DNA from: Demequina sp. NBRC 110056
GTDB lineage: Bacteria; Actinomycetota; Actinomycetes; Actinomycetales; Demequinaceae
Length of the DNA stretch: 64,000 bases
Reading direction: 5' to 3'
Assembly: GCF_002090155.1 (NCBI RefSeq)
Contig: NZ_BBRM01000002.1
Span: 372,001 to 436,000 of the forward strand
In this document: one piece after another, positions 1,810 through 64,000 of the stretch
How the letters are laid out: every line of letters starts with the position of its first letter
How positions within the stretch are numbered: position 1 is the stretch's first letter
Made by a program: the position numbers and the translations under genes
The notes under the pieces: generated by a model
Told to the model about the DNA's origin: nothing
Database searches by the model: none
What the model saw: the letters and a program-made list of their open reading frames with translations, nothing else

Positions 1810-2009
1810 GACAACACTCCATCACGAGCCACTGACATCACCGGCACGCCATCCACAGCCACCACCACAGCGGCACCGAGACACACGCGAGAGAAGTCCA
1901 TGAGCTCATCTCACCACGCGGGTCTGACATCGCTAGAGACGCCCACTTACCAGGCCGAACACCACCACGAACCCAGCAAGCGCATCGGCCCTCCGCAGGA
2001 TGATCTGGC

Positions 2010-2015
2010 TAGGAT
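2010..2015 (+). promoter_or_regulatory. Putative -10 box (TAGGAT) of the membrane protein gene
   Basis: TAGGAT lies 29 nt before the ATG at 2045, with the AGGGGAG ribosome binding site in between. The rest of 1810-2044 separates two divergent genes. It holds one copy of the GCATCGGC octamer (1982-1989) in its long form and no recognisable gene or RNA. Confidence 0.35.
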
Positions 2016-2044
2016 CGTGCACGCATCCGAACCAGGGGAGACCC

Positions 2045-2428
2045 ATGACCACCGCCGCCGCGATCCTCTTCACCGCCATCATCGGCCTCTTGGCGATCTT
2101 CCAGCTCGCGCTCGCCGCGGGCGCGCCGCTCGGACGCTTCGCCTTCGGCGGCCAGCACGACGGCGCTCTCCCACGCCACCTGAGGATCGCCTCGGCGCTC
2201 ACCGTGCCCGTCTACGCCTTCATGGCGATCACGGTGCTGGACAACGCGGGCCTCACGGACCTGCTCGGCGACGGCTTCGAGCGCATCGCGCTGTGGGTGA
2301 TCATCGCCTTCCTCGCGCTCAACACCGTCCCGAACGCCATCAGCCGCTCGCGTGCGGAGCGGTTCACGATGACGCCTACGCTGGTGGTGCTGACCGCGTG
2401 CGCGCTCATCGTGGCACTCACGAGCTAG
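2045..2428 (+). CDS. Small integral membrane protein of unknown function
   Basis: 127 residues with about four hydrophobic segments: one at the N-terminus (residues 3-25), then around 50-65, 78-95 and 107-125. Short basic or polar loops separate them, including an Arg-rich loop before the last helix. I do not recognise a family. The ATG at 2045 is chosen because AGGGGAGACCC lies directly upstream; the reading frame stays open further upstream but without a ribosome binding site. It precedes rpsD by about 150 bp and is probably transcribed separately, since a -10-like TAACAT for rpsD follows its stop. Confidence 0.6.
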   Translation: MTTAAAILFTAIIGLLAIFQLALAAGAPLGRFAFGGQHDGALPRHLRIASALTVPVYAFMAITVLDNAGLTDLLGDGFERIALWVIIAFLALNTVPNAISRSRAERFTMTPTLVVLTACALIVALTS

Positions 2429-2478
2429 GTGCCGCCACGCGCACCCACGACAGCCTCCACAAGCGGCCCGCAACCTGG

Positions 2479-2484
2479 TAACAT
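2479..2484 (+). promoter_or_regulatory. Putative -10 box (TAACAT) upstream of rpsD
   Basis: TAACAT lies about 98 nt before the rpsD ATG, leaving a leader of about 90 nt. No clear -35 hexamer is visible. Primary S4 genes are often autoregulated through their leader; I could not define a conserved structure here. Confidence 0.35.
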
Positions 2485-2582
2485 AGTTCAGCCCTCGCGG
2501 ACGGTTGGCTGCTGTCGCCGCGAATCAAGCAATCACGAACTTCTCCGTGCGCTTCCGCGCGCGCGGACCAGTGAAGGAAATC

Positions 2583-3209
2583 ATGACCTCTGTTCAGAAG
2601 GCACGCCGCCAGGTGCGGCTGTCCCGCGCCCTGGGCCTCGCTCTGACGCCCAAGGCCGTCAAGCACTTCGAGAAGCGCCCGTACCCGCCCGGCGAGCACG
2701 GTCGTACCGCTCGCCGCAAGGAGAGCGACTACGCCGTTCGTCTGCGCGAGAAGCAGCGTCTTCGCGCGCAGTACGGTCTCCGCGAGAAGCAGATGACCCG
2801 CGTCTTCGCCGAGGCTCGCAAGGAGTCCGGCCTGACCGGTGAGGCGTTCGTCGAGCTCCTCGAGATGCGTCTCGACGCGCTCGTGCTGCGCTCGGGCTTC
2901 GCCCGCACCATCCTGCAGGCGCGCCAGGCCGTTCTGCACCGCCACATCCTCGTGGACGGTCAGATCGTCGACCGCCCCTCGTTCCGCGTGAAGCCGGGCC
3001 AGACCATCCAGGTCAAGCCCAAGGCCGTCACCATGGAGCCCTACATGGCCGCCGCCGCCGGTGCACACCGCGACGTGCTGCCCGAGGTTCCGGACTACCT
3101 GGACGTCCAGCTCGAGAAGCTGACGACCAAGCTCGTCCGTCGCCCCAAGCGCGCCGAGGTCCCCGTGACCTGCGAGGTGCAGCTGGTCGTCGAGTACTAC
3201 GCCCGCTAA
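2583..3209 (+). CDS. rpsD: 30S ribosomal protein S4
   Basis: 208 residues, the usual length for the Cys-free bacterial S4. The protein binds 16S rRNA early in 30S assembly. Family features are visible: the basic N-terminal region with KRPYPPGEHG, the globular region with MTRVFAEARK, and the S4 RNA-binding domain around residues 97-160 (LDALVLRSGFARTILQARQ, then HILVDGQIVDRPSFRVKPGQ). The frame is open further upstream, but the ATG at 2583 has the ribosome binding site GAAGGAA and matches the conserved N-terminus. It stands alone here, outside the alpha-type ribosomal operon, and is followed by a strong terminator. Confidence 0.97.
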   Translation: MTSVQKARRQVRLSRALGLALTPKAVKHFEKRPYPPGEHGRTARRKESDYAVRLREKQRLRAQYGLREKQMTRVFAEARKESGLTGEAFVELLEMRLDALVLRSGFARTILQARQAVLHRHILVDGQIVDRPSFRVKPGQTIQVKPKAVTMEPYMAAAAGAHRDVLPEVPDYLDVQLEKLTTKLVRRPKRAEVPVTCEVQLVVEYYAR

Positions 3210-3235
3210 GCGAGCAGGTCGAACACAGACACGCG

Positions 3236-3267: not shown

Positions 3268-3378
3268 TGTCATACTTGGGGGTCGGTGCCCCCCGGCACT
3301 CACAAGGGTCACCCCCGACAGCAGCGCCGATGCGCTGGCAGACTTGGCATGACACGCCCACTTCCCATGGAGGACAGG

Positions 3379-6045
3379 ATGCGCACCGCGGACATCCGAC
3401 AGCGCTGGATCGTCTACTTCGCGTCGAAGGACCACCACATCCAGCCGAGCGCATCTCTGGTGTCGCCCGACCCGAGCCTGCTGTTCACCGTGGCCGGCAT
3501 GGTGCCCTTCATCCCGTACATCATCGGGACCGAAGACTCGCCCCACCCGCGCATCGCGTCGGTCCAGAAGTGCATCCGCACCAAGGACATCGAGGAGGTC
3601 GGCAAGACCACTCGGCACGGCACGTTCTTCCAGATGCTGGGCAACTTCTCGTTCGGCGACTACTTCAAGGAAGGCGCGATCGACTTCGCGTGGGACCTGC
3701 TCACCGGGTCCGAGGACGAGGGCAAGTACGGGCTCGACCCCGAGCGCCTGTGGGTGACCACCTGGATCGAGGACCACGAGGCGCACTCGGCGCTGCGCAA
3801 CATCGGCGTGCCCGACGAGCACATCGTGAAGCTGCTGCGCGAGGAGAACTTCTGGGACACCGGCCAGCCCGGCCCCGCGGGCCCGTGCGCCGAGTGGCAT
3901 TACGACCGCGGCCCCGAGTTCGGTCCTGAGGCCGTGGGCGGCACCGTCGACCCCGGCGGCGACCGCTACCTCGAGATCTGGAACCTCGTGTTCGACCAGT
4001 TCCTGCGCGGCCCCGGCTCGGGCAAGGACTACCCGCTCATCAAGGAGCTCGACCAGAAGGCCATCGACACCGGCGCCGGACTCGAGCGCATCGCGTACCT
4101 CAAGCAGGGCGTGGGCAACATGTACGAGATCGACGAGGTCTTCCCGGTCATCGCGAAGGCACAGGAGCTCTCGGGCAAGGAGTACAAGGCCGACGAGGGC
4201 GACGACGTCCGCATGCGCGTGGTCGCGGACCACGTGCGCAGCGCGATGATGCTCATGCACGACGGGATCGTCCCCGGCAACGAGGGCCGCGGATACGTGC
4301 TGCGCCGCCTCATGCGCCGCACGGTGCGGTCGATGCGCCTGCTGGGCGTGGAGGACCCGAGCCTGCCCACCCTCATCGAGACCTCGTACGAGGCGATGAA
4401 GGCGTCCTACCCCGAGCTCGGCGACAGCTTCGCCAAGGTCCAGGGCATCGCGGCCGCCGAGGAGGACGCGTTCCGCCGCACCCTCACACAGGGCACGACG
4501 ATCCTCGACACGGCGGTGGCGAAGGCGAAGTCCTCCGGCTCGACCACGCTCGGCGGCGCCGACGCGTTCCAGCTCCACGACACGTACGGCTTCCCGATCG
4601 ACCTCACCCTCGAGATGGCGGCCGAGCAGGGCGTCACGGTAGACGAGGCGGGCTTCCGCTCCCTCATGACCGAGCAGAAGGAGCGTGCGCGCGCCGATGC
4701 GAAGGCCAAGAAGGGCGGCCACGCGGACGTCAGCGTCTACCACGCGGTGGGCGAGAAGACCCCGACGGCGTTCCGCGGCTACGACGAGCTGTCGCTGACC
4801 AGCACGGTCGCGGCCGTGATCAAGGACGGCGTGTCCGTTCCCGTCGCGACCGCGGGCGACACCGTCGAGGTCATCCTCGCGGAGACGCCGTTCTACCCGG
4901 AGTCGGGCGGCCAGGACGCCGACTCGGGCGAGATCCGCTCCGGCAACGCGACGCTCAACGTCATCGACGTCCAGCGCCCGGTGACGGACGTCATCGTCCA
5001 CACGGTCACGGTCGAGGAGGGCGAGATCGCCGCGGGCGACCAGGTGTCCGCAGAGGTGGACGCGGTCAACCGCCGCCTGGCGAGCAAGGCGCACTCCGCG
5101 ACCCACCTGATCCATTCGGCGCTCCACGAGGTGCTCGGCGACGACGCGACGCAGGCCGGCTCGTTCAACAAGCCCGGCTACATGCGCCTGGACTTCGCGT
5201 GGCGCCAGGGCATCTCGCTCACCGCACGCGAGGAGATCGAGGGCATCGCCAACCGCGCGATCCGCGAGGAGCTGCCCGTCAGCACCCAGGTGATGAGCCT
5301 CGACGAGGCGCGCAACCTGGGCGCCATGGCGCTGTTCGGCGAGAAGTACGGCGACCGCGTGCGCGTGGTCGAGATCGGCGGACCGTTCTCGCGCGAGCTG
5401 TGCGCGGGCACCCACGTCGACAACTCGGGCCAGATCGGGCTGCTGTCGGTCACGTCGGAGGGCTCCGTCGGCTCGGGAGCGCGCCGCATCGAGGCGCTCG
5501 TCGGCGCGGACGCGTTCCAGTCCCTCGCGGCGGAGCGCGCGATCGTCAACGAGCTCACCACCACGCTGAAGGCGCGGCCCGAGGAGCTCAGCGACCGCAT
5601 CGGCGCGCTGCTGGCCCGCCTGTCGGAGACCGAGAAGCAGCTCACCTCGTACCGCCAGCAGGCGATGCAGCAGGTGGCTGGGCAGCTCGTCGAGACCGCG
5701 ACTGAGGTGAACGGTGTCCGCGTGGTCGCCCACGAGTCGGTCAACGCTGCCGACGGCGACGACCTGCGCACCCTCGTCACGGACGTCCGTGCGCGCCTCG
5801 GCGAGGGCGAGCCCGTCGTCGTGGCCGCATCGGCCGCGTTCAATGGCCGCCCCCAGATCGTCATCGCGACCAACCAGGGCGCGCGTGACAAGGGGCTGCG
5901 CGCCGGAGACCTCGTCAAGACCGCATCGGCCGTGCTCGGCGGAGGTGGCGGGGGCAAGCCGGACCTCGCCCAGGGCGGCGGTCAGGACGCGGGTCGTATC
6001 GCCGATGCGCTCGTCGCCGTTCGCGACGCCGTCGCCTCGGCGTAG
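3379..6045 (+). CDS. alaS: Alanyl-tRNA synthetase
   Basis: 888 residues, full length. It charges tRNA-Ala. The class II catalytic domain is at the N-terminus (TADIRQRWIVYF, then GTFFQMLGNFSFGDYFK). The editing domain carries the zinc/editing motif THLIHSALH and the later CAGTHVDNSG. The C-terminal domain ends with the Gly-rich GGGGGGKPDLAQGGG signature. The start is set at the ATG at 3379 (MRTADIRQ) because GGAGGACAGG lies directly upstream and homologues begin here; an in-frame ATG 93 bp upstream is unlikely. It heads a run with ruvX, mltG and aroE, a common actinobacterial order. No T-box-like leader was seen in 3271-3378. Confidence 0.97.
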   Translation: MRTADIRQRWIVYFASKDHHIQPSASLVSPDPSLLFTVAGMVPFIPYIIGTEDSPHPRIASVQKCIRTKDIEEVGKTTRHGTFFQMLGNFSFGDYFKEGAIDFAWDLLTGSEDEGKYGLDPERLWVTTWIEDHEAHSALRNIGVPDEHIVKLLREENFWDTGQPGPAGPCAEWHYDRGPEFGPEAVGGTVDPGGDRYLEIWNLVFDQFLRGPGSGKDYPLIKELDQKAIDTGAGLERIAYLKQGVGNMYEIDEVFPVIAKAQELSGKEYKADEGDDVRMRVVADHVRSAMMLMHDGIVPGNEGRGYVLRRLMRRTVRSMRLLGVEDPSLPTLIETSYEAMKASYPELGDSFAKVQGIAAAEEDAFRRTLTQGTTILDTAVAKAKSSGSTTLGGADAFQLHDTYGFPIDLTLEMAAEQGVTVDEAGFRSLMTEQKERARADAKAKKGGHADVSVYHAVGEKTPTAFRGYDELSLTSTVAAVIKDGVSVPVATAGDTVEVILAETPFYPESGGQDADSGEIRSGNATLNVIDVQRPVTDVIVHTVTVEEGEIAAGDQVSAEVDAVNRRLASKAHSATHLIHSALHEVLGDDATQAGSFNKPGYMRLDFAWRQGISLTAREEIEGIANRAIREELPVSTQVMSLDEARNLGAMALFGEKYGDRVRVVEIGGPFSRELCAGTHVDNSGQIGLLSVTSEGSVGSGARRIEALVGADAFQSLAAERAIVNELTTTLKARPEELSDRIGALLARLSETEKQLTSYRQQAMQQVAGQLVETATEVNGVRVVAHESVNAADGDDLRTLVTDVRARLGEGEPVVVAASAAFNGRPQIVIATNQGARDKGLRAGDLVKTASAVLGGGGGGKPDLAQGGGQDAGRIADALVAVRDAVASA

Positions 6046-6100: not shown

Positions 6101-6568
6101 TTGGACAGGGGAGTGCGCCTGAGCGTCGACGTGGGCACGGTCCGCATCGGCGTCGCGGCGTCCGATCCTGACGGACTCATGGCGTTCCCCGTCACCACCG
6201 TCCCGCGCGGCGAGGGCGACGTGGCCCAGGTGGCCGCGATCGTCGCCGAGCGGGGTGCCATCCGGGTGTTCGTCGGGCTACCGCGTAAACTGTCCGGGAA
6301 GGATGGCGACAGCGCGGCACTCGCGCACCGATTCGCCGCGGAGCTGTCGGAACGATGCGACGCGGTGGTTCGTTTGGTGGACGAGCGTTTCTCGACCGCA
6401 TCGGCGCAGCATGCCATGAGGCAGGCAGGACGCAGCGCCAAGCAGCAGCGACAGGTGATCGACCAGGCTGCCGCTGTGGTCATCCTGGAGAACGCATTGG
6501 ACATTGAACGACAGGGGAACCTCGATAGGGTGACCTACGAGCCGGATCCCAAGGGGAATGATGACTGA
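6101..6568 (+). CDS. ruvX: Holliday junction resolvase-like protein, YqgF/RuvX family
   Basis: 155 residues with an RNase H-like fold. Motif 1 is LSVDVGTVRIGVAASD (catalytic-type Asp), a central FVGLPRKLSG follows, and a LVDERFSTASA block carries the DER acid. The family acts as a putative Holliday junction resolvase or in 16S rRNA 5' processing. The start is taken as the TTG at 6101, with GGGAG six nt upstream; the GTG at 6113 has no suitable spacing. It lies 55 bp after alaS and overlaps mltG by 11 bp, so the genes are probably translationally coupled. Confidence 0.85.
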   Translation: MDRGVRLSVDVGTVRIGVAASDPDGLMAFPVTTVPRGEGDVAQVAAIVAERGAIRVFVGLPRKLSGKDGDSAALAHRFAAELSERCDAVVRLVDERFSTASAQHAMRQAGRSAKQQRQVIDQAAAVVILENALDIERQGNLDRVTYEPDPKGNDD

Positions 6569-7715: not shown

Positions 7716-8543
7716 ATGAGCAGTCGCCGCGCCGGCGTGCTCGGCAGCCCCATCGCGCACTCGCTGTCCCCGTCGCTGCACCGCGCAGCGTACGCCCACC
7801 TGGGGCTCGACTGGGAGTACGAGTCGTACGAGGTCGACGCCGAGGCTCTGCCGGGGTTCGTCGAGGCGCTCGACGGGTCCTGGGCGGGGCTGTCGTTGAC
7901 GATGCCGCTCAAGGTCACGGCGCTGCCGCTGGTCGACTTCGTCGAGCCGATGGCGAAGCTCGTGGGCGCGATCAACACCATCGTCGTGCAGCCGGTCACC
8001 GACCACCTGCAGCTCGTGGGCGCCAACACGGACGTCCACGGCGTGGTCGCCGCCCTCGCCGAGGGCGGTGTGACGCGCGCCACGCGGGGTGTCGTGGTGG
8101 GCGGGGGAGCGACGGCGACGTCCGCTCTCGCCGCCCTCGGGCGCATCGGCGTGACCCGGCCCGTCGTCGTCGTGCGCAGTCGCGGGCGGGCCGGCGGACT
8201 CCTGCGCGCCGCGACCAAGATGGGCATCGAGCCGCGCTTCGTCTCGTTCGACGAGGCGCCCGGACTGATGGCCGATGCGCAGGCAGTGGTCTCCACCGTT
8301 CCCGTGGTGGTGGGAGAGACGCTCGCGGGTGGTTTGGGTGGGTCTGTCCCCGCTGGCTCGGTGCTGCTCGATGCGGTGTATGACCCCCTTGTCACGCCCC
8401 TCGGCGCCGCGTGGCGGGACGCTGGAGGCACGTTCGTGCCGGGCACCCGAATGCTCCTGCATCAGGCCGCTGAACAGGTACGACTCATGACGGGAAGGAC
8501 CGTTCCGGTGGCGGTTCTGGAGGACGCGCTGCCCCCTCAGTGA
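7716..8543 (+). CDS. aroE: Shikimate dehydrogenase
   Basis: 275 residues. It reduces 3-dehydroshikimate to shikimate. The substrate-binding half has AGVLGSPIAHSLSPSLH, SLTMPLK with the catalytic Lys, and GANTD. The Rossmann half has VVVGGGATATSALAAL, a variant of the usual GxGGxxxA, and the C-terminal FVPGTRMLLHQAAEQ. It is separated from aroC-aroK-aroB-aroQ by the 13-kb pilus locus. It starts 9 bp after mltG and is probably cotranscribed with it. The chosen ATG at 7716 has only a weak upstream GGGCAG. Confidence 0.92.
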   Translation: MSSRRAGVLGSPIAHSLSPSLHRAAYAHLGLDWEYESYEVDAEALPGFVEALDGSWAGLSLTMPLKVTALPLVDFVEPMAKLVGAINTIVVQPVTDHLQLVGANTDVHGVVAALAEGGVTRATRGVVVGGGATATSALAALGRIGVTRPVVVVRSRGRAGGLLRAATKMGIEPRFVSFDEAPGLMADAQAVVSTVPVVVGETLAGGLGGSVPAGSVLLDAVYDPLVTPLGAAWRDAGGTFVPGTRMLLHQAAEQVRLMTGRTVPVAVLEDALPPQ

Positions 8544-8632: not shown

Positions 8633-10300
8633 GTGAAGCAGCTGGGGTCGATCCTGCTGGACGATGGTGTGCTCTCGGAAGAGCAGCTCATGGAGGCCAT
8701 CGACGAGCAGACGGAGAGCGGGCAGTCCTTGGGACGCACGCTTGTCGAGCTCGGCATGATCAGCGAGGGCCAGCTCGTGCGGGCGCTCGCCTCGCAGGTC
8801 GGCATGGAGTTCGTCGAGCTCGCCGAGTACCCCGTGGACCGCTCCGCCGTGTCTCTCGTGCCCGGCGCCGTGTGCCGCCGCCACAACGCGCTGCCGATCG
8901 GCATCTCCGACGGCATCATCCGCGTCGCGATGTCGAACCCCGGCAACGTGGTCGCCGTCGACGACTTCCGCACCATCACCGGCCTCGAGGTCGTGCCGGT
9001 CGTCGCGACGCACGACGACGTCATCTCGGCCATCGACCGCTACTGCCGTTCCGACGCCGAGCTCGGCCACCTGCAGGAGGAGCTGTCCGAGACGGAGGTG
9101 TCGGTCGACGAGGACCCGCTGTCCGCCGGCGTGGGCGAGGACGACGCGCCCATCGTGCGCTTCGTGAACCTGCTCATCTCGCAGGCCGTCCAGGACCGCG
9201 CCTCGGACATCCACATCGAGCCCGGCGAGAAGGAGCTGCGCGTCCGGTACCGCATCGACGGCGTGCTCCACGAGATGCAGACCGCGCCCAAGTCGATCGC
9301 CAACGGCGTCACCAGCCGCCTGAAGATCATGGCCGACATCGACATCGCCGAGCGCCGCAAGCCGCAGGACGGTCGCCTGTCGGTCAACCACCAGGGCCGC
9401 AAGGTCGACCTGCGTGTCGCGACCCTTCCCACGGTGTGGGGCGAGAAGGTCGTCATGCGTATCCTCGACAACTCGACCGCGACGCTCGCGCTCGAGGACC
9501 TGGGCATCCGCGAGTCCAACTACACGGCCTATTCGCAGACGTTCACGAAGCCGTACGGCATGATCCTCGTCACCGGCCCCACGGGTTCGGGAAAGTCGAC
9601 GACGCTGTACGCGACGCTCAACCAGATCACCCGGCCGGAGATCAACGTCATCACCGTCGAGGACCCGGTCGAGTACCGCATCCCCGGCATCAACCAGGTG
9701 CAGGTCAACCCCAAGGCGGGCCTGACGTTCGCGTCGGCTCTGCGTTCGATCCTGCGTGCCGACCCCGACGTCGTGCTCCTCGGTGAGATCCGTGACCACG
9801 AGACCGCGCAGATCGCCATCGAGGCGGCGCTCACCGGTCACCTCGTGCTGTCCACGCTGCACACCAACGACGCGCCGTCCGCGCTGACGCGACTCATCGA
9901 GATGGACATCGAGCCGTTCCTCGTGGGATCCGCGATCGACTGCGTCGTGGCGCAGCGCCTCGCGCGCCGCCTGTGCAACCACTGCGCGGTCGAGTACCAG
10001 CTCGAGGCGGACGAGATCCCCGAGAGCATCGAGTGGGACTCGTCGCAAAAGCCGCCGGTGGTGTTCCGGCCCGAGGGCTGCCAGCGCTGCTCGAACACGG
10101 GCTATCGCGGCCGCGTTGCGCTGCACGAGGTCATGGTCGTGAACGAGGACCTCGAGCGGCTCGCCGTCGCCCGCGCCTCGTCGGCCGAGATCGCTCGCAC
10201 CGCGAAGGCCAACGGCATGGAGACGCTGCTCATGGATGGCTGGGCGAAGGTGCTCGAGGGCACCACGTCGGTGGAGGAGCTGTTCCGTGTGGCGAAGTGA
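8633..10300 (+). CDS. pilB: Type IV pilus assembly ATPase PilB (GspE/PilB family)
   Basis: 555 residues. It is the motor for pilus extension on the cytoplasmic face. The N-terminal MshEN-type region (about residues 1-150, starting LGSILLDDGVLSEEQL) is followed by the secretion ATPase core: Walker A GPTGSGKSTTL near residue 315, Asp box and Walker B DPDVVLLGEIRD, and His box TGHLVLSTLHTNDA. The zinc-binding tetracysteine (LCNHC, then GCQRCSNTGYRGR) is intact and typical of PilB. The GTG at 8633 is preferred because GGAGGGGG lies at ideal spacing. It is the first gene of the pilus locus. Confidence 0.94.
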   Translation: MKQLGSILLDDGVLSEEQLMEAIDEQTESGQSLGRTLVELGMISEGQLVRALASQVGMEFVELAEYPVDRSAVSLVPGAVCRRHNALPIGISDGIIRVAMSNPGNVVAVDDFRTITGLEVVPVVATHDDVISAIDRYCRSDAELGHLQEELSETEVSVDEDPLSAGVGEDDAPIVRFVNLLISQAVQDRASDIHIEPGEKELRVRYRIDGVLHEMQTAPKSIANGVTSRLKIMADIDIAERRKPQDGRLSVNHQGRKVDLRVATLPTVWGEKVVMRILDNSTATLALEDLGIRESNYTAYSQTFTKPYGMILVTGPTGSGKSTTLYATLNQITRPEINVITVEDPVEYRIPGINQVQVNPKAGLTFASALRSILRADPDVVLLGEIRDHETAQIAIEAALTGHLVLSTLHTNDAPSALTRLIEMDIEPFLVGSAIDCVVAQRLARRLCNHCAVEYQLEADEIPESIEWDSSQKPPVVFRPEGCQRCSNTGYRGRVALHEVMVVNEDLERLAVARASSAEIARTAKANGMETLLMDGWAKVLEGTTSVEELFRVAK

Positions 10301-10414
10301 TGACCGCGTGACGGTGCGTGAGGCGATGGTGCTTGAGTACCAGGGTCTTCGCGCCGATAGGGAGTGCAGCAACCAGCCGGCACGGGTGAGCGCCCGGGCC
10401 GCAGGGGAGGATTC

Positions 10415-11902: not shown

Positions 11903-11905
11903 GTC

Positions 11906-13126: not shown

Positions 13127-13329
13127 ACATGCCAAGTGGAATGTGTCACAGAGTACTAGGTGACCCCAGGCAGATCCGGTAGAAAAGTGTCATCGAGGGA
13201 AACGGAAATCTCTCGACAAACCGTGCCAGAAGGGCAGTAGTCCTGGCTAGTTGAGGGTAATCACTGGTCGGCACCTGAATGCCACGCCGTGGTATTTGAA
13301 ATCGAAGAAGAAAACTGGAGGGGACGAGC
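13127..13329 (+). promoter_or_regulatory. 203-bp leader region of the major pilin gene
   Basis: This stretch is distinctly more A-rich than its neighbours, ending in AAATCGAAGAAGAAAACTGG and a strong GGAGGGG ribosome binding site. The length and composition suggest a dedicated pilin promoter and 5' UTR. I could not place confident -35/-10 boxes; TCGACA at 13213 with TAGTCC at 13238 is one weak pair. No known riboswitch motif was recognised. Confidence 0.4.
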
Positions 13330-13770: not shown

Positions 13771-13827
13771 TTCAGGCGGCTCAGATCTGGTGAGCGCCTA
13801 GATTCAGCGCGGCACCGGTCAGCCAAC

Positions 13828-13865
13828 GGTCGGTGGGAGAGGATGCGAGTCCTCTCCCACCGACC
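13828..13865 (+). terminator. Very stable hairpin downstream of the pilin gene
   Basis: A perfect 16-bp stem (13828-13843 pairing with 13850-13865) with a 6-nt loop, starting 57 nt after the pilin stop. CGCAGCAGTTTT follows, so the classic U-tract is weak. It could be a partial terminator or an mRNA-stabilising 3' end, giving excess pilin over the minor pilins transcribed beyond it. Confidence 0.75.
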
Positions 13866-13956
13866 CGCAGCAGTTTTCACCCACGGCGCGACGATCGTCG
13901 TCAGCAATCCGCACATCGTCAACGAGGTCGAGAATCAGCTGAGGGGAGCGCGGAAC

Positions 13957-18106: not shown

Positions 18107-18112
18107 ATCGAC

Positions 18113-25009: not shown

Positions 25010-25062
25010 CAGCCCCAGCCAGCGAGCGCATCGGCGCTACACAGGGCGAAGGCCCCGTCCGC

Positions 25063-50856: not shown

Positions 50857-51020
50857 ACCCGGCGCCGCCGGAAGGGCGACGACACGTCGCGGCCCCGGCG
50901 AGCGCATCGGCCCTCCGCCGTCCTGGCGGTCGACTCTGGCTGGTGGTGCGTCCGAGAACAGCCTGTTGGATCGATGCGGGAGGAACGGGGAGTCCCGGTC
51001 CTCCCGTGTCGCGCATCCCC

Positions 51021-54134: not shown

Positions 54135-54401
54135 ATGGGACCCCGCGAGATCATCATCATCGCCGTGATCGTCGTGCTGCTGTTCGGCGCCCCCAAGCTT
54201 CCGGAGCTCGCGCGCAGCATCGGCAAGTCGATGCGCATCCTCAAGGACGAGACCAAGTCCCTGACCGAGGACGACGACCAGGGCAAGGACAAGGGCGCCG
54301 CCAAGCCGGGCGCCGCGTCCTCCGAGGCTCCCAAGGCCTCGACGCCCGACGCCCCGCAGTCGACGGTCGACCTCCCCGACGACGAGGCGCGTGGCAAGTA
54401 G
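54135..54401 (+). CDS. tatA: Sec-independent translocase subunit TatA
   Basis: 88 residues. It has a single membrane helix with the short hydrophobic GPREIIIIAVIVVLLFG, the hinge and amphipathic helix APKLPELARSIGKSMRI, and an acidic/charged tail. It forms the Tat pore with TatC. GAGGAGA precedes the ATG. tatC overlaps its end by 11 bp. Confidence 0.93.
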   Translation: MGPREIIIIAVIVVLLFGAPKLPELARSIGKSMRILKDETKSLTEDDDQGKDKGAAKPGAASSEAPKASTPDAPQSTVDLPDDEARGK

Positions 54402-55174: not shown

Positions 55175-56161
55175 GTGACGACGCTGGGCGTCATCACCAA
55201 TCCGACAGCGGGGTCGGGGAGGGGACAGCGATGGGGCGCCGAGGCGCTCGCGCTGCTCGCCGCGCGCGGCCACCGCGTGCGCGACCTCTCCCGCGGCACC
55301 TGGGCCGCCTCCCTCGAGGAGGCCCGCGGTCGCCATCGCGACCTCGACGCCCTGGTGGTCGTCGGCGGCGACGGGATGGTGCACCTGGGCGTGCAGGCGT
55401 GCGCCGGCACGCGGCTGCCGCTCGGCATCGTGGCGGCGGGGTCGGGCAACGACGCCGCCAGCTCGCTCGGGCTTCCCATCCACGACGTGCAGGGCGCGGT
55501 GGACGCGATCGAGCGCGGGCTCGACGGTGACGTCGCACGCATCGATCTCGGTCGCATCGACGGCCCGGGCGTGGCCGATCGCAAGGGGCGTCGCTACTTC
55601 TCCGCGGTGCTGTCCATGGGCATCGACGCCGCGATCGCCGCGTCGGGCAACCGCATGCGCCACCCGCGTGGGCCGCTCAAGTACAAGGTCGCGACGCTCA
55701 AGGAGCTGCCGCGCTTCCGCCCGTACGGCGTGCGCATCGAGGCGGACGGCGAGGCGTGGGAGCAGACGTGCACCCTCATCGCGGTCGCCAACGGCCCGGT
55801 GTTCGGGGGAGGGCTGTGCATCTCGCGCGACTCGTCACTTGTCGACGGGATGCTCGAGGTGGTGGTCGCGGAGGCGGTGACCCGGCGGCGCATCCTGCAG
55901 CTGTTCCCCAAGCTGTACGACGGCTCCGTCATCGACGAGCCCGAGGCGCGGGTCATCCGCGCCCGCCGCGTGCGCATCGGCCCTGCGGGCCCGTCCGCCG
56001 GCCACCCAGGTGACGGGCCCGCCGGCCCCGCCCCGGGCGGCGCGGCCCTGCCCGCCGCCTTCGCCGACGGCGAGCTGGTCGGGCCCGCGCCGCTCGACAT
56101 CCGCGCCGAGCCAGGCGCCCTGCGAGTGCTCGGCGGAAGGCCGGATAGCCTGAGGGCATGA
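55175..56161 (+). CDS. Diacylglycerol kinase-family lipid kinase
   Basis: 328 residues. The DAGK catalytic domain shows LGVITNPTAGSGRG, VVVGGDGMVHLGVQA (GGDG nucleotide motif) and GIVAAGSGNDAASSLGLP. A second beta-sandwich domain follows, interrupted near residues 270-295 by a Gly/Pro-rich insert. It probably phosphorylates diacylglycerol or another lipid in membrane recycling. It sits between tatC and helY, which are adjacent in mycobacteria. Overlaps the helicase by ATGA. The exact lipid substrate is open. Confidence 0.87.
   Translation: MTTLGVITNPTAGSGRGQRWGAEALALLAARGHRVRDLSRGTWAASLEEARGRHRDLDALVVVGGDGMVHLGVQACAGTRLPLGIVAAGSGNDAASSLGLPIHDVQGAVDAIERGLDGDVARIDLGRIDGPGVADRKGRRYFSAVLSMGIDAAIAASGNRMRHPRGPLKYKVATLKELPRFRPYGVRIEADGEAWEQTCTLIAVANGPVFGGGLCISRDSSLVDGMLEVVVAEAVTRRRILQLFPKLYDGSVIDEPEARVIRARRVRIGPAGPSAGHPGDGPAGPAPGGAALPAAFADGELVGPAPLDIRAEPGALRVLGGRPDSLRA
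56146..56151 (+). promoter_or_regulatory. Putative -10 box (TAGCCT) giving a leaderless helY mRNA
   Basis: TAGCCT ends 6 nt before the helY ATG at 56158 and lies within the end of the lipid kinase gene. No Shine-Dalgarno. Confidence 0.4.
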
Positions 56162-58896
56162 GCACTCCAGCGGAGCGCTTCGCCGCGGCGAAGGCACGGG
56201 CCCGGCACCAGGATCTGATCGACTTCGAGTCGAGCCTGTCGTTCCCGCTCGACGACTTCCAGCGTGAGGCGTGCGCCGCGGTCGCGGACGGGCACTCCGT
56301 GCTCGTCGCGGCGCCGACGGGCGCCGGGAAGACCATCGTCGGCGAGTTCGCCGTGCGCCACGCGGTCGAGCGTGGCGAGAAGGCGTTCTACACGACGCCC
56401 ATCAAGGCGCTGTCGAACCAGAAGTTCGCGGAGCTGCGCCGCGTCTACGGCGAGGACCGCGTGGGCCTGCTCACCGGCGACACGTCGATCAACTCCGAGG
56501 CCCAGGTCGTCGTCATGACCACCGAGGTGCTGCGCAACATGATCTACGCCTCGTCACCCACCCTCGACAGCCTCGGTGCCGTGGTGCTCGACGAGGTGCA
56601 CTACCTCGCGGATCGCTACCGGGGCTCGGTGTGGGAGGAGGTCATCGTCCACCTCGACGCCAAGACCGCGATCATCTCGCTGTCCGCCACCGTGTCGAAC
56701 GCCGAGGAGTTCGGAGACTGGCTCACCGAGGTGCGCGGCGACACCAAGGTGATCGTGTCCGAGCGCCGTCCGGTGCCGCTGTGGCCGCACGTGATGGTGC
56801 GCGAGGGCATCTTCGACCTGTACGCACCGGGCGTCGACCCGCTGGACCCGGGGCCGACCCCGCGCCTCAACCCCGAGCTCGAGGCCATCACCAAGCGCCA
56901 ACGCCACGAGTCCGAGGCGCGGTACCGCGGCCGGCGACCCGCGCGCGGCGGCAGGCGGCCTCAGGGCCGCCGCAGCCCACCACGCTTCGCCGTGGTCGAC
57001 GTGCTCGACCGTCAGGCGCTGCTGCCCGCCATCGTGTTCGTGTTCTCGCGTGCCGGCTGCGAGGACGCCGTCGAGCAGGTGCGCGGGGCAGGACTGCGCT
57101 TGACGACGGACGAGGAGCGGGCCGAGATCGCGCGGATCGTCGACGAACGCTGCGCCGCGCTGCCCACCGAGGACCTCGGAGCGCTCGGATACCCGCGCTG
57201 GCGCGACCACCTCGAGGCGGGCATCGCCGCGCACCATGCCGGCATGATCCCGTTGTTCAAGGAGGTCGTCGAGCAGCTGTTCGCGGCGGGGCTCATCAAG
57301 GTCGTCTACGCGACCGAGACCCTCGCGCTGGGCGTCAACATGCCGGCCCGCTCCGTCGTCCTCGAGAAGCTCGTGAAGTGGGACGGCCAGGGGCACCAGG
57401 ACCTCACGGCGGGGGAGTACACCCAGCTCACCGGCCGTGCGGGACGCCGCGGCATCGACGTCGAGGGCCACGCCGTGGTGGTCGAGCACCCGGGCTTCGA
57501 CGCGGCCCAGCTGGGGCGCCTGGCGTCTCGTCGCACCTACCCGCTCATCAGCTCGTTCCAGCCGTCGTACAACATGACCATCAACCTCGTCGGCCGGTCG
57601 GGCGTGACGAAGGCTCGCGAGCTCCTGGAGCTGTCCTTCGCGCAGTACCAGGCGGACCAGTCGGTGGTCGGCAAGGCCCGCAAGGCGCGGGAGCTCGACG
57701 CGACCCTGGACGGCTTCCGCGAGGCGGCTGCCTGCGACAAGGGCGACTTCATGGAGTACGCCGCCCTGCGGGAGCGGCTGAACCGCCTGCAGAAGAACGC
57801 CGCGAAGGCCGCCTCGCGCCAGCGTCGCGAGGCCACCGCGTCGATGCTCGCGGGGCTCGCGCGCGGCGAGGTGGTGCGCATCGGCGGGGGCAAGCGAGCC
57901 GGCCTGGCCGTCGTCGTGACACCGGATGCCGACGAGGTGGCGCCGAGACCCACCGTCATCACCGTCGACGGGCGCCAGTTCCGCCTCGCGGTCTCGGAGC
58001 TGCACCACGGCGTCGAGAGCGTGGGCCACGTGAAGGTGCCTCGGCGCTTCGAGCCGCGAGACGCGCGGGCCCGCAAGGAGCTCGGGCAGGTCGTCCATGG
58101 CGCGCGGCACACGTTCGAGCTCGACGAGGTGAAGCGGTCCCGTCGTCCCGCCGGCCCCGACCGCGAGGTCGAGGACCTGCGCCGAGCGCTGCAGAGCCAT
58201 CTCTGCCACCGATGCCCCGACCGCGAGGATCACGCGCGCTGGGCCGAGCGCCACTTCCGCGCCCGCCGCGACCGTGATCGTGTGGTGGGAGAGATCTCGC
58301 GCGCGACGGGTTCCATCGCGAAGGTGTTCGACCGTCGGTGCGACGTGCTGCGCGAGCTCGGCTACCTCGAGGGCACCGGAGAGGACACCGCGATCACCGA
58401 CGCCGGCGTGAGCCTGCGCACGCTCTACTCGGAGAACGACCTCGTCATGGCCGAGTGCCTGCGCACGGGCGCCTGGGCGCAGCTGCATCCTCCGGCGCTG
58501 GCGGCCACCGTGTCGTCGCTGCTGTACCGCGGCAGGCGCGAGGACGAGGTGCGCACGCCCAAGGTGCCGGGTGGCCCGCGCGGCGTGCTCGGTCAGGTCC
58601 TCGCCGAGACACAACGCGTGTGGTCCCGCATCGACGACCTGCAGACGGACAAGGGCCTCCCAGAGCTGCCGCCGCCGCACTGGGGCATCGTCGGGCCGAT
58701 CCACGGCTGGGCTCAGGGCAAGGGACTCGACACCGTGCTGCGCGACACCGAGATCGCCCCGGGCGACATGGTCCGCTGGTGCAAGCAGGTCATCGACGTG
58801 CTCGACCAGATCGCGCAGTCAGCCCCGCAGCCCCAGCTCCGCGCACGGGCCCACACGGCGATCGACGCGATGCGCCGCGGGGTCGTCGCGTACTGA
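56158..58896 (+). CDS. helY: Ski2/Mtr4-like DEAD/DEAH-box helicase HelY
   Basis: 912 residues. RecA1: Q-motif-like LDDFQREACAA, Walker A APTGAGKTIVGEFAV, DEVH box VVLDEVHYLADRYRG and motif III SLSATVSN. RecA2: AAHHAGMIPLFKEVVEQLF, YATETLALGVNMPA, TGRAGRRGID. The C-terminal DSHCT domain (about residues 730-912) is as in Mtr4/Ski2. An Arg-rich linker, RYRGRRPARGGRRPQGRRS, lies near residue 258. It probably remodels structured RNA; function in bacteria is poorly known. Its place after pafBC-tatAC follows the mycobacterial gene order. Confidence 0.92.
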   Translation: MSTPAERFAAAKARARHQDLIDFESSLSFPLDDFQREACAAVADGHSVLVAAPTGAGKTIVGEFAVRHAVERGEKAFYTTPIKALSNQKFAELRRVYGEDRVGLLTGDTSINSEAQVVVMTTEVLRNMIYASSPTLDSLGAVVLDEVHYLADRYRGSVWEEVIVHLDAKTAIISLSATVSNAEEFGDWLTEVRGDTKVIVSERRPVPLWPHVMVREGIFDLYAPGVDPLDPGPTPRLNPELEAITKRQRHESEARYRGRRPARGGRRPQGRRSPPRFAVVDVLDRQALLPAIVFVFSRAGCEDAVEQVRGAGLRLTTDEERAEIARIVDERCAALPTEDLGALGYPRWRDHLEAGIAAHHAGMIPLFKEVVEQLFAAGLIKVVYATETLALGVNMPARSVVLEKLVKWDGQGHQDLTAGEYTQLTGRAGRRGIDVEGHAVVVEHPGFDAAQLGRLASRRTYPLISSFQPSYNMTINLVGRSGVTKARELLELSFAQYQADQSVVGKARKARELDATLDGFREAAACDKGDFMEYAALRERLNRLQKNAAKAASRQRREATASMLAGLARGEVVRIGGGKRAGLAVVVTPDADEVAPRPTVITVDGRQFRLAVSELHHGVESVGHVKVPRRFEPRDARARKELGQVVHGARHTFELDEVKRSRRPAGPDREVEDLRRALQSHLCHRCPDREDHARWAERHFRARRDRDRVVGEISRATGSIAKVFDRRCDVLRELGYLEGTGEDTAITDAGVSLRTLYSENDLVMAECLRTGAWAQLHPPALAATVSSLLYRGRREDEVRTPKVPGGPRGVLGQVLAETQRVWSRIDDLQTDKGLPELPPPHWGIVGPIHGWAQGKGLDTVLRDTEIAPGDMVRWCKQVIDVLDQIAQSAPQPQLRARAHTAIDAMRRGVVAY

Positions 58897-60497: not shown

Positions 60498-61237
60498 CGC
60501 GCACCCTCGTCATCATCCCCACCTACAACGAGCGCGACTCGCTTCCGGGCCAGGTGGACGCGGTGCGCGCGGCCGTGCCCGACGCCGACATCCTGGTGGT
60601 CGACGACGCGTCTCCCGACGGCACCGGCCGGTGGGCCGATGCGCGCGCGGCCGAGGACGGGCAGGTGTCCGTCCTGCATCGGCCCGGCAAGCAGGGGCTG
60701 GGAGCCGCCTACCTCGCCGGCTTCGCGTGGGGCCTCGAGCGTGGCTACGACGTGCTGGTCGAGATGGACGCGGACGGCTCGCACCGCGCGGAGGACCTGC
60801 CCCGCGTCCTGGGCGCGCCGGGCTCGTGGGACCTGGCCATCGGATCGCGTTGGATCCCCGGTGGAGCGGTCGAGAACTGGCCCGCGCATCGGCGCCTGCT
60901 GTCGACCGGGGCGAACACGTACGTGCGGCTCATGCTCGGCGTCCCCATCCACGACGCGACGGCGGGCTTCCGGGCGTATCGCGCCGACGCGCTGCGGAGC
61001 CTGGACCTCGCCGGCGTCGAGTCCCAGGGCTACTGCTTCCAGGTGGACATGGCGTGGCGCGTCGTGAAGGACGGCGGAACCGTCGTGGAGGTTCCCATCA
61101 CCTTCGTCGAGCGCGAGCAGGGACAGTCCAAGATGTCCGGCGCGATCATCCGTGAGGCCCTCGTGAAGGTCACCGCCTGGGGAATGAAAGAACGCGCGAC
61201 GCAGATGCGTCGCGCGTTCGGGGGAGGGTCGCGCTAG
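60491..61237 (+). CDS. Polyprenol monophosphomannose synthase (GT2 family)
   Basis: 248 residues. Soluble GT-A glycosyltransferase: [42 protein letters not shown] (the DAD metal motif) and GSRWIPGG. It transfers mannose from GDP-mannose to polyprenyl phosphate, feeding lipoglycan or glycoprotein mannosylation. It corresponds to the D2 domain of mycobacterial Ppm1, with Lnt as D1. The ATG at 60491 or the GTG at 60494 is the start. It ends tail to tail with rbpA, sharing a CTAG. Confidence 0.9.
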
Positions 61238-61569
61238 CCGATGCGGCCGGCGCGCAGGAGCTCGAGGCGCTCGTCGAGCAGGTCCTCGAGCTCGGCGATC
61301 GAGCGGCGCTCGAGCAGCATGTCCCAGTGGGTGCGCTGAGTCTTCTCGTCCTTCACCTCGGGGCGGTCGCCGTCACGCAGCAGCGCGAGCGAGCCGCAGT
61401 GGCACTCCCACGACAGGGGGACGTCGGCCTCGACCGAGAACGGAAAGGTCAGGACGTGCCCGTTGGGGCAGTCGTAGTGGACGTCGCGGCGCTCCGCGAG
61501 CTCCGCATTCGCCGGGGTCTCCATGCTCTGGGTTCCCAGTCGCATGCCACGCAATGCTCGATCAGCCAT
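61234..61569 (-). CDS. rbpA: RNA polymerase-binding protein RbpA
   Basis: 111 residues. This actinobacterial factor binds the principal sigma factor and stabilises open complexes. The N-terminal tail has [20 protein letters not shown]. The core has the zinc-type CPNGH and CHCGS pairs. The basic linker and sigma-interacting C-terminal helix ([24 protein letters not shown]) follow. GAGGGAGG lies before the ATG. A SigR/SigH-like promoter lies upstream. Its stop shares CTAG with the convergent glycosyltransferase gene. Confidence 0.95.
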
Positions 61570-62340: not shown

Positions 62341-62741
62341 GCCAGGAGGTCGGCGAGCAGCGCCTCGACGCGACCGCGGATCTCGTCTCGGATGGGCCGC
62401 ACCGACTCGATGCCCTGCCCAGCCGGGTCCTCGAGGACCCAGTCCTCGTAGCGCTTGCCGGGGTAGTAGGGGCAGGCGTCGCCGCAGCCCATGGTGATGA
62501 CCGCATCGGACGCCTGCACCGCCTCGGGGGTGAGCACCTTCGGCTGCTCGGCACGGATGTCGATGCCCTCCTCGAGCATCGCCGCCACGGCGGTGGGGTT
62601 GATCTGGTCGGCTGGCATCGATCCCGCGGACCGGACCTCGACGCGCCCCTGGCTGAGGTGGGTCATGTATCCGGCCGCCATCTGGGAGCGCCCGGCGTTG
62701 TGGACGCAGACGAAGATCACGGAAGGCTTGTTCTCGCTCAT
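62337..62741 (-). CDS. arsC: Arsenate reductase (low-molecular-weight phosphatase fold)
   Basis: 134 residues. The catalytic loop VCVHNAGRSQMAAGY is the C-x5-R motif. GCGDACPYYPGKRYEDWVLEDP near residue 90 is typical of actinobacterial enzymes that use mycothiol/mycoredoxin; thioredoxin coupling is the alternative. It reduces arsenate to arsenite. The ATG at 62741 (MSENKPS) is chosen over the TTG at 62759. Divergent from arsR across a double operator. Confidence 0.92.
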   Translation of the reverse strand: MSENKPSVIFVCVHNAGRSQMAAGYMTHLSQGRVEVRSAGSMPADQINPTAVAAMLEEGIDIRAEQPKVLTPEAVQASDAVITMGCGDACPYYPGKRYEDWVLEDPAGQGIESVRPIRDEIRGRVEALLADLLA

Positions 62742-62761
62742 GCGGCCAGGCTTCCGCAAAC

Positions 62762-62793
62762 ATTGACGACTGTCAATATCGACAAGTGTCGAT
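62762..62793. promoter_or_regulatory. Two adjacent ArsR-type operators between arsC and arsR
   Basis: Two inverted repeats with the same 7-2-7 layout lie head to tail: ATTGACG-AC-TGTCAAT (62762-62777, one mismatch) and ATCGACA-AG-TGTCGAT (62778-62793, perfect). The second overlaps a -35-like TCGACA of the arsR promoter. The first contains TTGACA on the minus strand, fit to be the -35 of arsC. This fits ArsR/SmtB repression of both directions, released by arsenite. Confidence 0.75.
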
Positions 62794-62802
62794 GTGGTGA
62801 AC

Positions 62803-62808
62803 TAGGGT
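62803..62808 (+). promoter_or_regulatory. -10 box (TAGGGT) of leaderless arsR
   Basis: TAGGGT ends 7 nt before the ATG at 62816. The -35-like TCGACA (62779-62784) is spaced 18 nt away, within operator 2. Confidence 0.5.
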
Positions 62809-62815
62809 GGCGCGC

Positions 62816-63163
62816 ATGGCGATCGGCGAGAACCTCCTGGCGGACGATGCCGTGTGCTCCCCGGGTTCGCCGCTGACGCTGCCTCAGGCGCCCGACGCCT
62901 CGCTCGCCGGCTCGCTGCGCGTGCTCGCTGACCCGACCCGCCTGCGCATCGTCCAGATCCTGGCCGCGAACGGCTCCGTGTGCGCGTGCGACCTCGAGCC
63001 GCCGCTCGGGCTCAGCCAGCCCACCGTGTCGCACCACCTGCGCCAGCTCGTCCAGGCGGGGATCGTCGAGCGCGAGAAGCGGGGCACGTGGGCGTTCTAC
63101 CGCGTCACACCGGGGATGATCGGCGCGATCGCCGAGGACCTCGGCGCCATCGAACGCGCCTGA
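62816..63163 (+). CDS. arsR: ArsR/SmtB-family arsenic-responsive repressor
   Basis: 115 residues, winged helix-turn-helix. The recognition region is LGLSQPTVSHHLRQLVQAGIV. Three Cys residues (14, 56, 58) are the candidate As(III) ligands; Cys56 and Cys58 sit in SVCACDLE near the alpha3 site, close to the classic ELCVCDL motif. The ATG at 62816 is chosen; a GTG nine bases upstream is an alternative but lies on the -10 box. It is divergent from arsC-aquaporin. Confidence 0.93.
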   Translation: MAIGENLLADDAVCSPGSPLTLPQAPDASLAGSLRVLADPTRLRIVQILAANGSVCACDLEPPLGLSQPTVSHHLRQLVQAGIVEREKRGTWAFYRVTPGMIGAIAEDLGAIERA

Positions 63164-63231
63164 CGCCCGACGGGCCAAGGGTCGAACGTGCGTGAGGTTG
63201 GGCGCGCCCGCGGTCCGGCGCGCCGCGCCGA

Positions 63232-64000
63232 TCACTCGTGCGCCGCGGCCGCGAGCCATGACAGCGCCTGCGGCGCGTGCTCGAGGATCGAGATGTGTCC
63301 CGCGTCGGGGACGAGCCGCAGCTCCGCGCCCATCCTTGCGGCGAGCCAGCGACCGTGAGCGGGCGGCACGATGCGGTCGGCCTCGCCGTGGACGACGAGC
63401 ACGGGGGCCGTGATGGCGTCCACCTCGGCGCGCCAGTCGCGCACGTAGGCCATGTCATCGTCGATCGCGCCGTCGAGGTCGTCGGGCCCCATCGCCCCCG
63501 CGACGCGTCCCAGCCACTCCCAGCCCTCGTCGAGGGAGCGCAGGTCGGCCGCCGTGAACTCGGGGTCGTAGCCGTCGTCCTCGGCGGCGCGACGTTCGGC
63601 GTCGCCCGCCTCGGCGGCCGTGAGGACGCGCCGCCCCGACGCGATCATGCCGTCGTACCAGTCGATCCCGTCGGCGTCGCGCGGCGCGAGGCCGGCGATG
63701 ACCGCCGCCGCGACCGCACGGGGATCGGCACCAGCGCATGCCAAGGCGTGCGGGCCACCGCCCGAGTACCCGAGCACGGCGTAGCGGTCCAGGCCGAGCG
63801 CATCGGCCGCGTCCGCCGTGTCGCTCGCGACGTCGCCGACGCGGCGGCCTGCCAGCCGCTCCGACTCCCCGTATCCCGGGCGATCGACGCCCAGCAGCCG
63901 CAGGTGGAGCTCGTCAGCGAGCGCGAGGAGGGGCGCCGGCGGCTCGCCGATGCCCGGCGTGCCGTGATGCCAGAACACCGCGAGAGATGGGCCCGAGCCG
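63232..64000 (-). CDS. Alpha/beta hydrolase, 5' end cut by the window edge
   Basis: At least 256 residues; the frame stays open to the last base of the window. The oxyanion-hole segment FWHHGTPG, nucleophile elbow GYSGGGPHALA (Ser), the acid in VVHGEADRIVPPAHG and His in DAGHISILEH form an intact catalytic set. A helical cap with many acidic residues lies in between. The substrate is unknown; lactonase, esterase or haloperoxidase-like roles are all possible. Convergent with arsR, 68 bp apart. Confidence 0.85.
   Translation of the reverse strand, partial: GSGPSLAVFWHHGTPGIGEPPAPLLALADELHLRLLGVDRPGYGESERLAGRRVGDVASDTADAADALGLDRYAVLGYSGGGPHALACAGADPRAVAAAVIAGLAPRDADGIDWYDGMIASGRRVLTAAEAGDAERRAAEDDGYDPEFTAADLRSLDEGWEWLGRVAGAMGPDDLDGAIDDDMAYVRDWRAEVDAITAPVLVVHGEADRIVPPAHGRWLAARMGAELRLVPDAGHISILEHAPQALSWLAAAAHE

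Follow-up and report, generated by a model that had tools for sequence, protein, structure and literature searches.

An iterated octamer with clade-specific spellings in Demequina genomes, a candidate self-DNA uptake signal

The octamer GCATCGGC was studied in a 64,000-nucleotide stretch of Demequina sp. NBRC 110056 (contig NZ_BBRM01000002.1, positions 372,001 to 436,000 of the forward strand), called the window below. The window is part of contig C2 of the genome G000 and also encodes a type IV pilus cluster. Its CarB protein shares 87% identity with CarB of Demequina lignilytica, the nearest relative with a name, which places the organism in Demequina. The exact copies of GCATCGGC on its two strands are as follows (window positions).

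1982..1989, plus strand, intergenic copy
3326..3333, minus strand, intergenic copy
4693..4700, minus strand, copy
5597..5604, plus strand, copy
5827..5834, plus strand, copy
5923..5930, plus strand, copy
6001..6008, minus strand, copy
6144..6151, plus strand, copy
6398..6405, plus strand, copy
8143..8150, plus strand, copy
8271..8278, minus strand, copy
10739..10746, plus strand, copy
10794..10801, plus strand, copy
16435..16442, plus strand, copy, the sole one from 10802 to 23563
23564..23571, minus strand, copy
24042..24049, plus strand, copy
24451..24458, plus strand, copy
25028..25035, plus strand, intergenic copy
25948..25955, plus strand, copy
26239..26246, minus strand, intergenic copy
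26462..26469, plus strand, copy
27093..27100, minus strand, intergenic copy
31012..31019, minus strand, copy
31991..31998, plus strand, copy
32652..32659, minus strand, copy
34514..34521, plus strand, copy
34798..34805, plus strand, copy
35072..35079, plus strand, copy
35332..35339, minus strand, copy
35834..35841, plus strand, copy
37342..37349, plus strand, copy
39055..39062, minus strand, copy
39658..39665, minus strand, copy
40046..40053, plus strand, copy
40120..40127, plus strand, intergenic copy between convergent genes
40483..40490, minus strand, copy
41110..41117, plus strand, copy
42868..42875, plus strand, copy
43234..43241, minus strand, copy
43640..43647, plus strand, copy
43696..43703, plus strand, copy
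44022..44029, plus strand, copy
44242..44249, plus strand, copy
44566..44573, minus strand, copy
46972..46979, minus strand, copy
47703..47710, minus strand, copy
47818..47825, plus strand, copy
50061..50068, plus strand, copy
50581..50588, minus strand, copy
50904..50911, plus strand, intergenic copy
53699..53706, plus strand, copy
53796..53803, minus strand, copy
54069..54076, minus strand, copy
54217..54224, plus strand, copy
55974..55981, plus strand, copy
57878..57885, plus strand, copy
60635..60642, minus strand, copy, in opposite orientation to the copy at 60676, 33 bp apart
60676..60683, plus strand, copy, partner of the copy at 60635
60886..60893, plus strand, copy
61237..61244, minus strand, copy
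63800..63807, plus strand, intergenic copy
63946..63953, minus strand, copy

Abundance and placement of the octamer

The 62 copies in the window compare with 9.03 in 100 dinucleotide-preserving shuffles (standard deviation 2.97, maximum 17), and GCATCGGC ranked first by frequency among all octamers of the window. An earlier sequence-only reading of this DNA had reported about 61 copies against roughly five expected; the count was nearly exact, while the expectation was too low, 9 to 13 being computed here (13.2 under an order-2 Markov model). A maximal-order Markov model built on the heptamers of GCATCGGC itself predicted 56.4 copies, because these heptamers are enriched too. In the 2.94-Mb genome, 2,505 copies were found (1263 forward and 1242 reverse), whereas the reversed word, used as control, occurred 438 times (220 and 218), indicating that the highly iterated octamer is genuine.

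A larger sample of the same contig, C2:1-456000 (456 kb), was also analysed. There GCATCGGC was the most over-represented octamer, with 360 copies versus 87.1 under an order-3 Markov model. One-base variants were not equally frequent, the best reaching 28 copies in the window (GCCTCGGC) and 201 in the 456 kb. The most over-represented 9-mer was CGCATCGGC (265 versus 32.1 expected), and the best 10-mer around the octamer was GCGCATCGGC (158 versus 11.9). The exact 10-mer CGCATCGGCC stood 14-fold above expectation; its one-mismatch forms were 1.8-fold over, mainly at one tolerant position (115 versus 15.1), and forms with two to four mismatches occurred at 0.96 to 1.0 of expectation.

Gene calls made for this analysis gave 411 genes in the 456 kb (91.8% coding). 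The genes held 290 copies, of which 102 encode Arg-Ile-Gly or Gly-Ile-Gly, versus 99.7 ± 8.1 (maximum 118) in 100 within-gene synonymous shuffles, a null that keeps codons but not codon pairs. The codon shuffling proposed with the sequence-only reading thus does not reproduce the count. Like the DNA uptake sequence (DUS) of Neisseriaceae and the uptake signal sequence (USS) of Pasteurellaceae, GCATCGGC is over-represented well above composition and codon usage, at about one copy per kb.

Intergenic DNA carried the octamer at 1.79/kb (68 copies in 38.0 kb), 2.5 times the genic density of 0.70/kb. Between convergent genes the intergenic density was 3.81/kb and between divergent genes 1.06/kb; the two co-directional arrangements gave 1.75 and 0.81. 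Within the window, eight copies are intergenic by the present gene calls, one more than had been claimed. The consensus around the 68 intergenic copies was longer and asymmetric, about CCRGCSMGC-GCATCGGC-SCTCC, and the fuller consensus between genes that contains the octamer is CCRGCSMGCGCATCGGCSCTCC. Ten neighbour pairs had a gap of less than 15 bp, and seven of them were divergent (minus then plus); by inspection these could form hairpins, the longest stems being like AGGAGGGCCGATGCG, and three pairs were intergenic. Along the 456 kb, the copies were evenly spread over eight 57-kb bins (34 to 53 each) and showed no consistent strand bias (17 to 29 in the most uneven bin; six bins had positive GC skew).

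Two other words were seen in the same DNA: CGGGGGAG/CTCCCCCG was likewise over-represented in the 456 kb (87 versus 20.7 expected), and AACTTCTC/GAGAAGTT, with 8 copies versus 0.3 expected in the window, may reflect Glu-Lys-Phe codons.

Dialects in Demequina and iterated words in other actinobacteria

The comparison with related genomes that had been suggested showed that congeners carry different spellings of the word. The scan covered some 40 kb surrounding carB in each of 36 Demequina genomes (G000 and 35 others), and longer stretches in five of them. The dialect words CGCATCGGC, GGCATCGGC, AGCATCGGCC, CGCATCGTCC and CAGCGTCGGGC share the core GC[A/G]TCG. Dialect A, CGCATCGGC, was the top word in G000, G051, G016, G045 and G014, and narrowly (10 to 9) in G055. 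Dialect A', GGCATCGGC, led in G015, G024, G052, G040 and G018, and by small margins in G008, G039 and G046, and AGCATCGGCC was top in G010. Dialect B, CGCATCGTC/CGCATCGTCC, was top in the clade of G023 and others; dialect C, AGCGTCGGGC, in G009 (91 versus 2.0 expected in 240 kb); and AGCGTCGGC, weakly, in G003 (32 versus 7.1 expected in 140 kb). Whole-genome counts of CGCATCGTC divided the 44 genomes: 15 had 996 to 2,026 copies, G049 had 438, and the remaining 28 had 69 to 336. A tree of nine core proteins, rooted at the midpoint, showed the dialects for the most part filling clades, so that, as with DUS and USS, spellings around an invariant core follow phylogeny, with some scatter: G004 and G048 have dialect B while the rest of their clade shows none, G018 and G003 are sisters of different dialect, and G039/G046 lie apart from the other A' genomes.

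Two genomes showed further peculiarities. G022 was enriched for two dialects (CGCATCGTC 13 versus 1.8, CGCATCGGC 14 versus 2.6; L207-L208), possibly a dialect switch in progress. The carB region of G057 (L193-L194) contained long C/G run(s), with CCCCCCCCCC counted 19 times over both strands.

The dialects were also visible in codon choice. GAT makes up only 10.2% of Asp codons and GCA 5.3% of Ala codons in G000, yet Ala-Asp-Ala was spelled GCC GAT GC in 105 of 278 cases, compared with 44 of 264 in 13 dialect-B genomes, and Ala-Ser-Ala was spelled GCA TCG GC in 51 of 214 compared with 2 of 150. These are the rare-codon copies that the sequence-only reading had singled out. Asp-Asp-Ala was spelled GAC GAT GC in 108 of 204 cases in the dialect-B genomes versus 23 of 83 in G000.

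Conservation of the motif was measured in nine close species pairs. Pooled, 166 of 260 motif copies were unchanged versus 1554 of 3299 other SSATSSSS octamers (Fisher p 2e-7, indicative only, as the pairs share genomes); in a second control, 1655 of 3699 NNATCGNN octamers were unchanged. The motif was better kept than the controls in eight of the nine pairs. Six genomes with another dialect or none were each aligned at 26 to 31 sites orthologous to G000 copies. GCATCGGC was found at 3 to 7 of these, and the remaining sites held scattered octamers, not the other dialect; site-by-site dialect conversion could therefore not be shown. In the orthologous 40-kb region, intergenic versus coding density was 1.07 versus 0.60/kb for dialect B (15 genomes) and 1.35 versus 0.51 for dialect C (G009). 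No divergent close pairs were present in this region of five other A and nine A' genomes.

The spread of GCATCGGC was counted in 297 Actinomycetales genomes (24 Demequina and 273 others). The highest density found outside Demequina was 0.39/kb (G250, 1,174 in 3.0 Mb) versus up to 1.07/kb within it (G015), densities being calculated by hand from rounded sizes. A scan of 78 named actinobacterial loci for iterated words, two further loci being too short, gave the second highest score to Microbacterium oleivorans, for CGGCATCC. This second iterated octamer marks Microbacterium and Agromyces; genome counts, with those of the reversed word, were 4,068/162 in M. oleivorans, 4,745/230 in M. yannicii, 3,644/209 in M. 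allomyrinae and 3,579/254 in Agromyces albus. Seven other genomes included two of Cryobacterium (1,727/250 and 1,685/224) and D. lignilytica (540/226). In 100 kb of another Microbacterium, CGGCATCC was the top octamer (98 versus 18.4), with 84 copies in genes versus a synonymous null of 23.0 (maximum 34); its intergenic density was not higher there (0.72 versus 1.04/kb coding). Four Microbacterium phages had it more rarely, 36 copies in 169.7 kb (0.21/kb). Actinophages were absent from the matches listed in a guanylate-kinase search of phages.

Several loci stood out individually. The CGGCATCC(G) loci were L071, L065, L064, L110 and L256-L257 (Microbacterium, Agromyces), of which L256-L257 (NZ_CP072877.1, Microbacterium) is labelled plasmid but looks chromosomal, with polA, his and trp genes. 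The highest score of the 78 loci belonged to Streptomyces antibioticus (L092), for the GC-rich CACCCGCACC (15 versus 0.4). Cryobacterium flavum (L099) had 15 copies of AGCGGATG in 23 kb versus 1.0 (13 genic versus a null of 1.9, maximum 5). Kribbella antiqua (L070) had 28 copies of CGTCGTAC in 23 kb versus 4.9 expected; its variable positions look codon-driven, yet 24 copies stand against a synonymous null of 4.8 (maximum 9).

The type IV pilus cluster and competence genes

The pilus cluster of the window comprises the following features, the gene products listed here being identified by Pfam matches.

8633..21630, plus strand, type IV pilus cluster, motif-poor, possible uptake filament
8633, plus strand, PilB
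11906, plus strand, PilC
13330, plus strand, pilin
13843, plus strand, pilin
15873, plus strand, pilin
18113, plus strand, PilD
19014, plus strand, PilM

From their positions, we take the gene at 10577 to encode PilT, that at 16568 a PilX-like protein, and those at 20231 and 20857 PilN-like and PilO-like proteins; the product at 20231 had no Pfam match, and the one at 20857 was named without a Pfam scan. Two ATPases of the cluster belong to PF00437. The PilX-like protein (window 16568-18106) matched the ricin-type beta-trefoil lectin domain PF00652 (E 1.7e-7).

PilM and ComEC were present in all 41 good Demequina genomes and in 43 of the full 44. ComEA, assigned from its sequence, directly precedes ComEC in G000, where it was looked at. 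G000 has five PF00437 secretion ATPases over the cut-off, two in the window and three elsewhere, the latter taken, by analogy with Micrococcus luteus, to be of the tight adherence (Tad) type. Competence machinery and motif thus occur in the same genomes, as in the DUS and USS systems.

The pilus cluster itself behaved differently from the word. Sister species of one dialect had different pilus proteins (local identities over matched segments): 40% for PilM and 44% for PilD in G024/G052 (core 96.5%), 44% and 46% in G023/G044 (core 96.7%), and 42% and 44% in G004/G048 (core 94.5%). Conversely, PilM was 58% identical between G000 and G009, of different dialects, versus 40% between G000 and G016, of the same dialect. 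Two pilin-cluster architectures were found among 30 genomes, both in dialects A, A' and B. Pilus clusters of 20 genomes contained few copies of the local word (41 in 219 kb versus 530 in 800 kb), though their GC content was also lower. Because the cluster is exchanged between sister species that keep their dialect, the word is probably not read by the window pilus, and the link to a retractile pilus suggested in the sequence-only reading was not supported. The cluster is swapped as a cassette among close species, four pairs having PilM/PilD identities of 40-48% at core identities of 94.5-96.7%.

A proposed uptake signal and alternative explanations

The motif was compared with known systems. 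As described in passages of PMC3630211, the DUS is a short non-palindromic word at about 1/kb, genic and denser between genes, with inverted pairs at gene ends or terminators and with dialects that share an invariant core and track phylogeny. The Demequina word differs in its sequence, in being GC-rich and in its monoderm actinobacterial host, and its dialects are not followed by the window's pilin cluster. We consider that GCATCGGC may work like a DUS and do not class it as one. The USS also combines a core with a looser flanking element, dialects and high copy number, according to parts of PMC12616744, but its sequence is unrelated to the Demequina word, whose flanks are GC-rich. As a control, the same scripts were run on 50 kb of Neisseria gonorrhoeae, where the DUS GCCGTCTGAA was the top 10-mer (53 versus 0.5), with 25 genic copies versus a synonymous null of 1.3 and 2.07/kb intergenic versus 0.69/kb coding. 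The Neisseria record L258 (NZ_CP119142.1) is labelled plasmid but is chromosome-like (2.17 Mb, with a carB match).

Micrococcus luteus offers a parallel for the machinery. Its transformation involves ComEA/ComEC and two Tad loci (passages of PMC4322843 and PMC6370729), both loci being needed for transformation (PMC4322843), and G000 has ComEA, ComEC and three further ATPases. No uptake sequence is mentioned for M. luteus there, and the term is absent from the main texts of PMC4322843 and PMC8467076. It is absent, too, from PMC11577799, which describes natural transformation in two other actinobacteria, Rhodoluna lacicola and Aurantimicrobium photophilum. Among the literature matches listed, no actinobacterial uptake sequence was found and neither word was reported, though a paper naming one word alone could be missed.

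We lean, with modest confidence, towards GCATCGGC serving natural transformation as a self-DNA uptake signal that biased import and recombination maintain. This reading is favoured because the motif is non-polar, non-palindromic, codon-independent, conserved, dialect-forming and, in G000, dense at gene ends, and because its host genomes encode ComEC and pili. Of uptake, methylation and chromosome organisation, all left open by the sequence-only reading, uptake fits best, also in its DUS- and USS-like density. In the proposed mechanism, a surface DNA receptor of the competence machinery would prefer motif-bearing fragments, and kin DNA would be imported and then recombined, so that biased import would raise the number of motifs and hold them there. 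PMC1939737 argues that such words can accumulate through biased import by itself. Each Demequina clade would read its own spelling around the GC[A/G]TCG core, and the dialects would therefore separate gene pools. We infer that Demequina is transformable with motif-preferring uptake, and that the reader would be a receptor outside the window pilus cluster, for example a minor pilin of a Tad pilus or ComEA.

Several observations weigh against an uptake signal. A ComP-like receptor would naturally be sought in the type IV pilus cluster, yet that cluster fails to follow dialect. No motif stood out clearly in the examined DNA of G001, G012, G057 and G021, all of which have ComEC and PilM. Intergenic DNA of the orthologous 40-kb region was hardly enriched in five other A genomes (0.79 versus 0.71/kb) and nine A' genomes (0.81 versus 0.68/kb). 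The pair G023/G044 went the opposite way in conservation (15 of 26 motif copies versus 222 of 346 controls unchanged). When G000 genes were divided into quintiles by codon typicality, no depletion of the motif was found in atypical-codon genes (lowest quintile 55 versus 14.9 expected, highest 47 versus 21.3). Spelling also changed little between G000 and dialect B for Arg-Ile-Gly (62/78 and 38/62) and Gly-Ile-Gly (40/66 and 37/69), and these copies may be ordinary, as had been supposed.

These last contexts, and a reversed control that is somewhat exceeded in many other Actinomycetales too, are what could be said for an origin of the word in the codon usage, codon-pair preference or mutational bias of GC-rich DNA. 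We give this hardly any probability: the synonymous null is exceeded, the octamer is denser in intergenic than in coding DNA, congeneric species use different words, and mismatch classes 2 to 4 lie at expectation while the exact 10-mer is far above it. Composition and codon usage were thus rejected by the shuffles, the synonymous null, the mismatch classes and the cross-species codon contexts. A polar recombination or segregation site, like Chi or the FtsK-orienting polar sequences (KOPS), would also be an octamer in many copies, but the balanced strand counts, the bins without consistent strand bias and the higher intergenic density leave its probability practically negligible; such a site was rejected, no strand bias by replichore being found, and the mixed orientation pointed out in the sequence-only reading was borne out. 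An interspersed extragenic repeat, of the repetitive extragenic palindrome (REP) or miniature inverted-repeat transposable element (MITE) type, was rejected because 290 of the 360 copies are genic and the intergenic copies share only a loose consensus.

A further rival is an element produced by a DNA methyltransferase with methylation-directed mismatch repair, as for the highly iterated palindrome HIP1 of cyanobacteria. Passages of PMC4390886 describe HIP1 and the alternate HIPs as highly iterated octamers, swapped for other words in some species, and G000 has one match each to PF00145 and PF02384. However, HIPs are palindromes with matching methyltransferases (PMC4390886), whereas GCATCGGC and every dialect found are non-palindromic, and the three methyltransferase families searched are dispensable for the Demequina word. 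Of 44 genomes, 7 matched PF01555, 29 matched PF00145 and 27 matched PF02384 (25 of them above the cut-off). G045, G052, G006, G044 and G048 matched none of the three (Dam-type, Eco57I-type and other families lay outside the search), yet are rich in the motif, with 2,535 (G045, A) and 2,417 (G052, A') copies of GCATCGGC, and 2,026 (G006), 1,921 (G044) and 1,776 (G048) copies of CGCATCGTC in dialect B. Because of the missing palindrome and these five genomes, a HIP-like origin is disfavoured and appears quite improbable, which speaks against the methylation hypothesis raised earlier. Reading of an uptake signal by the window type IV pilus through a ComP-like minor pilin is improbable: the cluster has two PF00437 ATPases, PilC, PilD, PilM and pilins, and PilM is present in all good genomes, but the three same-dialect pairs with divergent PilM and PilD, and the occurrence of both architectures across dialects A, A' and B, argue otherwise. 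A binding site of a chromosomal protein (for nucleoid organisation, termination or recombination control), with specificity changed between clades, would be fitted equally by the long asymmetric intergenic consensus and the dialects, and is consistent with the density between convergent genes and some inverted pairs. We consider it unlikely though not negligible, as most copies lie inside genes and are even along the 456 kb with no consistent strand bias. About 2,500 sites is also far above the number for usual regulators.

If GCATCGGC is an uptake signal, a broader proposal can be put forward tentatively, as a real possibility: self-DNA signals may have evolved a third time, in monoderm Actinomycetota, both in Demequina and, with CGGCATCC, in Microbacterium/Agromyces, with a receptor other than a type IV minor pilin and with dialects as barriers to gene flow. 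Should the uptake reading be wrong, a genome-wide word that changes its spelling between congeners still needs explaining. For actinobacteria, whose cells lack an outer membrane, a motif with dialects would add a third case of independent origin, and the 44 species with at least five spellings lend themselves to comparative work on the receptor and on species isolation by uptake signals.

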